Shown here piece by piece: positions 60,732 through 64,000 of a stretch of DNA of 64,000 bases. Under the pieces are notes generated by a model. It was not told the DNA's origin. It saw nothing but the letters and a program-made list of their open reading frames with translations, and searched no databases. A program made the position numbers and the translations under genes. The first letter of the stretch is position 1. The number at the start of each line of letters is the position of its first letter. Source of the DNA: Chalara sp. BL73 (Eukaryota; Ascomycota; Leotiomycetes; Helotiales); the NCBI GenBank assembly GCA_918026815.1, contig CAKJVC010000088.1, positions 434,001 through 498,000 on the forward strand, read 5' to 3'.

Positions 60732-62311
60732 GTCTCGAGGAAAGGCGCATACGCTGTATTATATCTCGTGGCGCTAATGGTAGGAATATGTTAACTCGCT
60801 TAGGAATTGCCTAGCAACAACGACATTCAATGATCGCTGAACACATCTTTGAGTCATACCGAGAGACTAGATATTCAAAGCCATCTCGTTCGTCGACTAG
60901 ATTGCGATATTTATGGAATATTAAAATTCTTGGGATATTTTACTCACACTAGTGGCTGTATGTTCATCCTCATGATTACCACGGGACTCCCAAATATCAG
61001 GATGGTAGGGATCTCTCAGTGCGGGCCATCTTCATGTTTAGATGCTTGAACCTCTTTCTATCCCAAACCTTAGCAAAGCTTCGCCAGTAATGGTATTTTT
61101 TTTGAGGCTAAATGACTACTGGGTCAGGCGACAGTTCTTTATGTTCTCATCGTAATGTCACAAATACCTGAGACCTCTCAAAATGATATGCCTTTGCATA
61201 CTCGACATTTTCTAAGAAATCAAGCCTCCTTGCCTACGCCTTTTGATTGATATATCCTAGAATATTGATAGCAGCAAAATATTCGGTGTTTGGTACTAGT
61301 GTTGACTCTAAGTATCACCATATAGCAGTCTGGGGCTTCCATTTAAGCTTACAATAGAGATTTTCATTCATACAGATCTTTCAGCATCAAGGGACTGCTA
61401 GTACTGTCTAACTCATGCACAGCTACAAGCTTTGAGGCTGTGTTGCTTCCAGGCTTCTCCATCAAATTTCACTCCGGTGGTCTTCGATCGATAGGGACCA
61501 GTAAAAGCCTACGATTTTTGGGACGAGTTATTGCACTAGTCAGGAGTCTTTTGTCTAAATTCGTGTTTAGAGCCTAGAAATTTTCAAGCTTCAAAGTATT
61601 GAGCAACTCCATCTGCGATTCAGCGGCGGACCTGACAGGCATGCAGAAAAGGCTGCTCTTCTTGAAGGCGGTCATCCTACAAGGGGCATTGATCACGAAG
61701 TTGTCTCCTTGGGTACTTATGGGGTTTTGCACTTGGAATAGGTAGCACTCGTCTTAGTGACCTTAGCTTCGTCCAGAAATCCCTTTCCGAGAAAATATTA
61801 GCAGAAAGATACTAAAGGATTGAAGGCGGCTCGGACGTTGCGAGTCAGGTGGGTCAGATTCCTAGAGCCCCATGCTCTCAGTTGCACTAATGTTCGGCTC
61901 TATTGCAAACTTTGATATATCAAAGTATCATAGCACTAGGTAAGTTGAGTATAGGCTTGTGCACCAAGCTCATCACCGTTGGTTCAACTCTTATTTGCAT
62001 CAAAGCGTCGGTATGAGACCAATCTCCAATGGCAACAGACTGGTTGTAGGGATGTATCTGGTCTGGTAACCTGGTTGGTGTTAGATGTGCTAGGCTGGAA
62101 TGTATCTTATTATTCTAGGCATGGTTAAAAGCCCTAGTGATATGGATGTGTCATAGCGTTTATGAGTATTTTTATTGTACGCCTGTTATCTCCGTCATCT
62201 AAATTCTTGAGGTCCAGACATGTCGATTAGATGAGCCCGGTTGAGTACGAATGTCCCAGGGTTTGTAGGCAAATTCCTTCTTCACAACCATCTCTAGGAC
62301 AGTGTGCAATG
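60732..62311. other. AT-rich gene-free stretch
   Basis: About 1.6 kb between TPT1 and the U6 gene with no supported ORF. It is the downstream flank of U6 and the upstream flank of TPT1. Confidence 0.45.
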
Positions 62312-62317
62312 AAAAAA
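62312..62317 (-). terminator. RNA polymerase III terminator of U6
   Basis: A run of six T on the minus strand directly after the U6 3' end (CTACCAATTTTTT), the normal Pol III stop. Confidence 0.85.
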
Positions 62318-62470
62318 TTGGTAGCTTCTCTTTGATTGAGCGTGTCATCCTTAGTGCAGGGGCCATGCTAATCTTCTCTGTATCGTTTCCTACGCGTGAT
62401 ATTAGCCATCGTCTCAATGCTTCTTGATGAAAGGTATGCCTACAAATTGACCAAATGCCCGAAGGCGAAG
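62314..62470 (-). ncRNA. U6: U6 spliceosomal snRNA, interrupted by an intron
   Basis: Exon 2 (62389 down to about 62314) carries the near-invariant U6 core: GAAACGATACAGAGAAGATT, then AGCATGGCCCCTGCACTAAG. It includes the ACAGAGA box (62375-62381), the AGC triad (62367-62369) and the U4-pairing region GATGACACGCTC. Exon 1 (62470-62444) has a GCC-TTCG-GGC 5' hairpin and GGTCAATTT. These join as GGTCAATTT-GAAACGATAC exactly as in other fungal U6 RNAs, once a 54-nt GT-AG insert is removed. The mature length is about 103 nt. The 5' end is placed after a T7 run that would otherwise stop Pol III. The TATA box at 62504-62511 fits a Pol III U6 promoter. Confidence 0.9.
62390..62443 (-). other. Spliceosomal-type intron inside U6 snRNA
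   Basis: A 54-nt insert begins GTAGGC and ends ATCACGCGTAG, with a CTAAT branch-like site 12 nt before the end. It lies just 5' of the conserved GAAACGATACAGAG. The donor is weaker than the GTAAGT/GTATGT used by neighbouring genes. Confidence 0.8.
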
Positions 62471-62503: not shown

Positions 62504-62511
62504 ATTATATA
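62504..62511 (-). promoter_or_regulatory. TATA box of U6
   Basis: TATATAAT on the minus strand, 34-41 bp before the inferred U6 5' end. Confidence 0.65.
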
Positions 62512-62706: not shown

Positions 62707-62753
62707 CCAGAGCTCCTCTCCCTCTCCTTCTGTTTTCTTTTCCTTTCTTCTTT

Positions 62754-62940
62754 AGCTCTCTTTGCCTATTGGCTTAGATCAAGTGTAGTATCTGTTCTTT
62801 TCAGTTTAATCTCTGAAAGATGGTCATAGACCATCACATTGATTATTCTTATTTTTGTCCCGCTCGGGCTCTCCTCTGGGCTTGCTCATGAGAGCTCGAA
62901 CTGTGTCTCTGGCATTACACTGCCGCCAGATGATGCGACC
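62754..62940 (+). ncRNA. U2: U2 spliceosomal snRNA
   Basis: The 5' end reads CTCTCTTTGCCTATTGGCTT followed by AGATCAAGTGTAGTATCTGT, the U2 hallmark. GTAGTA at 62785-62790 pairs with intron branch sites. CAGTTTAATCTCTGA (stem IIa) and the GATGGTC-ATA-GACCATC hairpin (IIb) follow, then the Sm site ATTTTTG (62851-62857) and a CCCGCTCGGG hairpin. The terminal stem-loop IV is TCTGGC...GCCAGA (62908-62930), with a loop of the U2B''-binding type. No intron is seen. U2 is the core of the branch-site-recognising U2 snRNP. The 3' end is approximate. Confidence 0.93.
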
Positions 62941-64000
62941 ATCTTTTCATTGAGATCTTAGCTTTGCTGAGACTTGAAGAAGGATCATGATATCTGTAGC
63001 AGCATGTCTTTCAGCCGTGGCTATGGTGCATAAGAATGTGTAAAGTTTTGGCAACTGAAATTCTGTGTATGCCATCGATAGCTCACGATACATCTCGTTC
63101 TCTAGTATTGTAGCGTAGGATGCTGTCGTATCGATCTTTTTATTAATATCGAGATACAAACTAATACAGGTGCCACATCTCACGCAACACAGACTTTGGT
63201 GGAAGCAGATACTTCCCGTCCACCAGATAGATAGCCTTATCCGTCATCCAGCATCAAATACAGCCTCCCAAGATCTCCACAAATGGATTTTTCACTACCT
63301 CTCATTGGAAAACGCACAAGCGTAATGAAATTCCCAGGAAGCCATGAAAAATAATGAATGCGTTGAGAGCGCCTGGCCATAACAGCATCCGCACTGAACA
63401 ACCACAGACGAAGCCGACCTAATGACCCTCCCCTTCATGAACCGCCGTCCAACACCCATCCCGAACGCGAATCCGCATCACCAACTCACCAAGCAGACCA
63501 AAACGAAGAAGGACACCCACCCCCTCCACGCCCTTCTCAATAACTAGGTAGCTAGCCGCCTCGACGTCAACATATACAAGCCGGACAAACAGCCACCGTA
63601 TAACCGCGGTCCCGCCTCAACCACGCGCAGACGGCTCTCACGATATCAGCAAGTGAGGGGGGGAGGACATACCAAAAACCATCCAAGCGCCTTCCGCCCC
63701 CCTCAAAGGAGGCAAAGCCGACCCGCCCGCGGTTCTCCCGTGCTCGTGAACGACGGGGGGCCTGAAGCTGCTCGCACGTACATGGACCGCCTCCCGTTCA
63801 TGCCTGCGCAGGCCCTGAAAACGGGAAGATGCCGGGGGCGGTGGGACGGCAAGATGGGGAGGCGGGTATGCGTTGATGCGAATGAAGGAGAGGAAAGATG
63901 ATATGCAATGGTGGTGGTAGTTATTGTTGTGTATAGAATCAGTTCCTCAAATGGGGATGAGATTAATCGGTTGGCATTTATGGATGAGGTTTACGGATTT
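62941..64000. other. Right-edge region with a GC-rich block
   Basis: After the U2 gene the sequence is unremarkable until about 63,420. It then becomes GC-rich, with a short plus-strand ORF from ATG 63422 (MTLPFMNRRPTPIPN...) and another open frame at 63653-63901. Possible splice signals exist (CAA/GTGAGG at about 63651), but I cannot build a convincing protein. Confidence 0.3.

Follow-up and report, generated by a model that had tools for sequence, protein, structure and literature searches.

An interrupted U6 snRNA gene in Chalara sp. BL73, with spliceosomal-type introns in U4 genes and a likely U3 gene of the same genome

Introduction

A U6 snRNA gene interrupted by a 54-nt insert occupies positions 62312-62466 on the minus strand of the window, the 64,000-nucleotide stretch of the Chalara sp. 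BL73 genome analysed here, as identified by an Rfam match and by direct reading. Judging from its sequence and from that of its relatives elsewhere in the genome, it is very probably one of several working U6 genes, and the insert a GT-AG intron that would be removed by the U2-type spliceosome. The intron, which had been the subject of an original prediction made from the window, is one of eight that we found in the U6, U4 and U3 genes of this genome.

Introns in U6 genes are established in Schizosaccharomyces and in basidiomycete yeasts. The intron-bearing genes of Schizosaccharomyces were reportedly described by Tani and Ohshima, and a survey by Canzler and co-workers in RNA Biology (2016) is said to have found U6 introns common and independently gained across fungi. 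An interrupted U6 gene is a known fungal oddity and is not new in itself. Interruption of U4, by one intron or by three, may be new, as may a 3' hairpin common to U6 and other snRNA genes.

The interrupted U6 gene of the window

The covariance model proposed as a check of the original prediction, Rfam U6 (RF00026), matches positions 62422-62313 of the minus strand with 72.4 bits and an E value of 2.2e-16, against an Rfam gathering cut-off of 44. In this alignment the 5' portion is wrongly threaded into the intron, so that automatic annotation would misplace the U6 5' end; the true 5' exon lies at 62466-62444. Read on the minus strand, the gene consists of GCCTTCGGGCATTTGGTCAATTT, the 54-nt insert and GAAACGATACAGAGAAGATTAGC...CTACCAATTTTTT, and removal of the insert leaves the usual fungal U6 order. 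Exon 1 (62444..62466, minus strand, with an inferred start) holds the 5' hairpin GCC-UUCG-GGC and UUUGGUCAAUUU, and exon 2 (62312..62389, minus strand), which runs from GAAACGAUACAGAGA to UUUUUU, is covered by RF00026 and by 78/78 nucleotides in a DNA search. The ACAGAGA box, the AGC triad, the internal stem-loop sequence and the 3' T run, a T6 run at 62317-62312, are all present by direct reading. Once spliced, the U6 core (that of copy L003, identical in the window copy) is predicted to pair with the three U4 RNAs of this genome, over their 5' part, at duplex energies of -25.4, -25.4 and -26.6 kcal/mol, calculated without a shuffle control.

The intron itself (62390..62443, minus strand) begins with GTAGGC and ends with GCGTAG, and it contains the branch-site-like sequence GGCTAAT (62401..62407, minus strand, by sequence reading), in which the second A of CTAAT is followed by 12 nt. 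Its 3' border lies 8 nt upstream of the ACAGAGA box. The original prediction had described a GT...AG insert of this length, with a CTAAT site, a few bases 5' of the box and with its junction at 62389/62444; all of this, coordinates included, is correct, and the strand, which had not been given, is minus. The splicing signals are weak, namely GTAGGC at the 5' end and CTAAT instead of CTAAC. Like the U6 genes of Schizosaccharomyces and basidiomycete yeasts, this gene of a fungal host holds a GT-AG intron of some 50 nt that has a branch motif and sits in conserved U6 sequence near ACAGAGA.

The chance occurrence of such an insert was gauged with an intron signature comprising GTRNGN, CTAAY with 11-14 nt after its A, a final AG and a length of 48-62 nt. 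Across 20 dinucleotide-shuffled versions of the window, about 2.6e-5 of positions start a full signature. The unshuffled window contains it at 8 places, against 3.3 (SD 1.6) in the shuffles, which is a modest excess; when the length and branch limits are dropped, the window shows no excess (31 against 28.4 in shuffles). Recurrence within the genome is a stronger test than these chance statistics for the window.

U6 copies across the genome

At least six U6 copies are present in the 58.7-Mb genome, the same six being returned by a covariance search and by a DNA search; the number is a lower bound because only the best candidates were scored by both. Three of the six (L003; L005, the window copy; and L006) are interrupted at one and the same point, CAATTT^GAAACG, by introns of 58, 54 and 53 nt, respectively. 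All 101 exon nucleotides, those of exon 1 as well as the 78 nt of exon 2, are identical among the three, whereas the alignment scores of their introns exceed those of shuffled sequence by only 0.4 to 1.5 SD. A removed intron predicts just this, unchanged flanks on either side of a centre that has drifted but has kept its ends and its branch motif. Identical exons combined with unalignable introns thus favour removal of the insert over a dead gene copy, and they support the earlier claim of an mRNA-type intron in U6. Gene conversion in short tracts, instead of selection, could also keep the exons identical.

The remaining copies, L001, L002 and L004, are uninterrupted sequence variants, the last of them damaged. 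L002 is 93% identical over the 87-nt query, with AAAAAG replacing GAAACG, and L001 is 88% identical over query positions 10-87, with several insertions and deletions of one to three bases; both stray from the sequence usual for U6. L004 stems from a recent duplication of L001 (98.6% identity over 4.6 kb), and a 7-nt gap in it deletes the 5' hairpin. L001 forms a head-to-head pair with a diverged U2 gene, and the 4.6-kb duplication (L007 against L010, on contigs C5 and C185 of G000) embraces this U6/U2 pair. Among the interrupted copies, L006 has identical exons and is without the 3' hairpin described below, and its TATA-like element stands at 30 nt, which makes its activity doubtful.

Several copies interrupted at the same site by unalignable introns, beside intronless variants in one genome, set this fungus apart from the yeasts with interrupted U6 genes mentioned above. 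A collection of viral contigs contained 0 matches to exact patterns of the interrupted U6, U6 exon 2 and U4, and a collection of genome contigs contained 0 to the first two of these; neither collection is suited to fungal DNA.

Alternative readings of the insert

The coexistence of intron-bearing and intronless snRNA genes might reflect a mixed assembly, in which the two sets come from two organisms or from a hybrid. A diverged intronless set, comprising U1 L035, U2 L026/L027, U4 L013 and U6 L001/L002, does stand beside the majority set and is clearly unlike it, as such a mixture would have it. The two kinds nevertheless meet on one contig, C5, where a majority-type U1 gene (L029) lies 54 kb from the divergent U6/U2 pair. 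Moreover, the loci are alike in base composition (45-49%), and the one protein tested, a 999-aa part of a Mot1-like gene, has a single full match, the next reaching 39% identity over half the length. We therefore regard a mixed origin as improbable.

The original prediction had also allowed for a second intact U6 gene elsewhere that would show the window copy to be a silent pseudogene; on that reading, the intronless copies would supply the cell's U6. Uninterrupted copies do exist, in L001 and L002, and L004 shows that damaged copies occur, so the window copy is not proved necessary; the sequences of these copies differ from it, however, and their existence does not show it to be dead. A silent copy would be hard to reconcile with exons that have stayed identical in three interrupted genes whose introns have drifted past alignment. 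It also sits poorly with the TATA-like element and the 3' hairpin, of a covarying kind, that the window copy retains. Finally, the intronless copies are the very ones that lie off the usual U6 sequence, L002 through AAAAAG in place of GAAACG and L001 through its insertions and deletions. Taken together, these points make a pseudogene very unlikely.

Retention of the insert in a variant form of mature U6, or an unrelated insertion with a chance likeness to an intron, is scarcely credible, given one site, kept signals, similar lengths and unalignable sequences in three copies and a signature that chance supplies at about 2.6e-5 per position. A working U6 gene with a spliced intron is the reading that we carry forward.

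Introns in U4 genes and a likely U3 gene

Three U4 genes were found, of which L013 is uninterrupted and diverged. L014 (1435-1630, G000:C82) contains one intron of 58 nt after nucleotide 32, and L015 (1329-1625, G000:C3) contains three, of 54, 53 and 51 nt, after nucleotides 9, 32 and 48, the sites having been counted by hand on the spliced sequences. By U4 structure, site 9 falls within the U6-pairing stem, and sites 32 and 48 belong to the 5' stem-loop. L015, split three times, scores under the Rfam cut-off. After splicing in silico, L014 and L015 are identical over their first 90 nt, and the four nearest differences fall in the 3' hairpin, where pairing is preserved (by eye), one of them changing G-C to A-U. 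On account of this identity and of these pairing-keeping differences, both genes look functional.

Introns in U3 snoRNA genes occur in yeasts. A likely U3 gene, L059 (1194-1500, G000:C125), which we take to be U3 by eye from its motifs, resembles them in having one intron near its 5' end, here of 51 nt, and differs from them in nothing notable.

Rhodotorula hasegawae has introns in its U1, U2 and U5 snRNA genes, and we know of no report of introns in U4. The present genome resembles that of R. hasegawae in that mRNA-type introns interrupt snRNA genes besides U6, but the genes concerned differ: two of three U4 genes are interrupted here, whereas none of the seven U1 and none of the six U2 genes found is, each of these spanning its model from first to last position. 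The interruption of U4 as well as U6 also distinguishes this genome from the yeasts with interrupted U6 genes named above.

All eight introns (three in U6, four in U4 and one in U3) are 51-58 nt long, run from GT to AG and contain CTAAY, whose second A, itself included in the count, lies 11-14 nt from the end. Compared with one another, the introns of U4 L014 and U3 L059 form the best pair, with agreement in 43/59 columns and a score of 22.5 against 6.7 (SD 3.1) for shuffled sequences. Scores more than 2.5 SD above shuffles were also obtained for the U6 L003 intron with U4 L015 intron 2 and with the U3 intron, for the U4 L014 intron with L015 intron 1, and for L015 intron 1 with L015 intron 3 and with the U3 intron. 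Because shuffling broke the shared branch motif and 28 comparisons were made, part of this likeness is to be expected. Some of the introns, such as those of U4 L014 and U3 L059, perhaps share a common origin.

Promoter elements and the 3' hairpin

At the window U6 gene, two features like those of Pol III genes, the T6 run and an A-box-like sequence, occur beside a TATA-like element, TATATAAT (62504..62511, minus strand), that begins 45 nt upstream of the proposed start, and beside a 3' hairpin of the U1/U2/U4 type. The A-box-like sequence, TGGTCAATTTG (62443..62453, minus strand), spans the exon-intron border, its last G being intron base 1. It is found in this position in 3/3 interrupted U6 copies and 0/3 uninterrupted ones, and it is kept across the border because the intron starts with the G that the box needs. 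The U6 intron of S. pombe carries a B box; here, unlike in S. pombe, the B box GGTTCGANTCC, sought with up to two mismatches from -130 to +450 of ACAGAGA, was found in none of the six U6 copies.

Promoter elements were tabulated for 22 genes (five U6, three U4, one U3, seven U1 and six U2, with L004 left out). In 21 of them, a TATA-like or TTAAG element begins 36-54 nt upstream of the proposed start, a spacing taken without a control, the exception being U6 L006. Directly before the proposed start, CTTC is present in 11 of the 22, the window U6 included.

The 3' hairpin element of the window U6 gene, TTTCATT...TGAAGAAG (62277..62314, minus strand), is common to U1, U2, U4 and U3 genes and to most U6 genes, and most of the genes considered here have such an element behind them. 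A strict pattern for it, drawn from the same snRNA genes, matches at five places genome-wide, downstream of U4 genes in three cases and of U6 genes in two; a reversed control gives 0 matches. A looser pattern has 24 matches, of which 15 follow the 22 snRNA genes, one follows U3 and eight lie elsewhere, against seven in the reversed control. The hairpin is mostly confined to these RNA genes.

Its pairing was assessed in 20 of 23 genes, omitting the near duplicates L004 and L026 and the element-lacking L006. In the proposed structure, which was drawn from the tested sequences themselves and is biased in its own favour to that extent, 90.8% of cells pair, compared with 32-57% when the structure is slid. 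In 500 shuffles, the observed pairing, the number of doubly changed cells and the covariation score were never equalled; all seven inner pairs are changed on both sides, a count that by itself was reached by 31/500 shuffles. An automatic fold kept six of the seven inner pairs and drew the outer helix differently. In four U6 copies, two of which have the same pairs in six of seven, 24/28 cells pair, a number that drops to 9-14 once the structure is shifted by one or two columns, and three pairs are changed on both sides against none after the shift. Such covariation within U6 suggests at least occasional transcription of the stretch past the U6 T run, which would be odd for a Pol III terminator.

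U6 elsewhere is known to end at a Pol III terminator, and yeast snRNA genes have RNase III (Rnt1/Pac1) processing hairpins downstream. The present hairpin is like the latter in standing just beyond the snRNA 3' end; it is unlike them in being one related element that follows U1, U2, U4 and U3 and also U6.

Proposed production of U6 and U4

If the window gene works as proposed, a U6 precursor would be transcribed with its 54-nt intron, the ordinary (U2-type) spliceosome would cut the insert out, yielding a U6 with the standard fungal order, and the mature U6 would then join U4. With two of the three U4 genes found interrupted likewise, splicing would have a part in making each partner of the U4/U6 di-snRNP. 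Since mature U6 and U4 are needed for splicing, their supply would be self-dependent, although the uninterrupted variant copies may ease this loop, which then need not be a strict chicken-and-egg problem.

A broader scheme, tentative and in our estimation rather unlikely, can be drawn from the same sequences. In it, the U4 and U6 halves would derive partly from split genes and partly from the diverged intronless set, and U6 would be made through a promoter like that of U1, U2 and U4 and through hairpin processing, perhaps from a Pol II-like precursor extending past the T run. If true, U6 would lie within a transcript competent for splicing, and its supply would depend on the spliceosome's own output.

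Introns in the RNAs of the spliceosome offer a test of how introns spread, reverse splicing into neighbouring RNAs being one example, and of possible self-regulation of splicing capacity. Those described here lie in regions near the catalytic core, where reverse splicing or some other route may have put them. The three-intron U4 gene, the U6 introns with unalignable bodies at a common site and the intronless variants allow a natural comparison within one genome, and the hairpin common to U6 and other snRNA genes turns the identity of the polymerase that makes U6 into a testable question.

Other snRNA genes

Rfam returned one above-cut-off match for U5, L028 (50.4 bits against 40), which we doubt to be U5, as only three base pairs close the loop and no snRNA promoter or 3' element was seen beside it. 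Searches with two U5 loop-to-Sm patterns led to a single, unconvincing place and to one sequence present in three copies. The U5 loop motif occurs at 108 places, against 119 in a reversed control, and no convincing U5 was seen among the first 40 matches listed. Three identical copies of a stretch with the U5 loop motif (L074-L076, on C84 and C198) are probably a repeated element. The U1 matches score 46-54 bits, under the Rfam U1 cut-off of 69.5, and a U1, U2 or U5 gene in split form might have been missed by the searches.

The divergent U2 and U6 genes were considered as minor-spliceosome RNAs and rejected, their branch-recognition and ACAGAGA sequences being of the major type. In the diverged U1 gene, L035, the second stem-loop carries changes on both strands of its stem (by eye).

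Within the window, an intronless U2 snRNA gene (62752..62944, plus strand; Rfam RF00004, 159.9 bits) lies head to head with the U6 gene and is followed by its own 3' hairpin element (62945..62982, plus strand), found by pattern search. Head-to-head snRNA pairs of the kinds U6-U2, U1-U4, U2-U1 and U6-U1 occur in the genome, at 62466/62752 of the window and at C82:294.6-295.3 kb, C174:26.0-26.6 kb, C164:69.9-70.8 kb and C5:403.5-404.5 kb.
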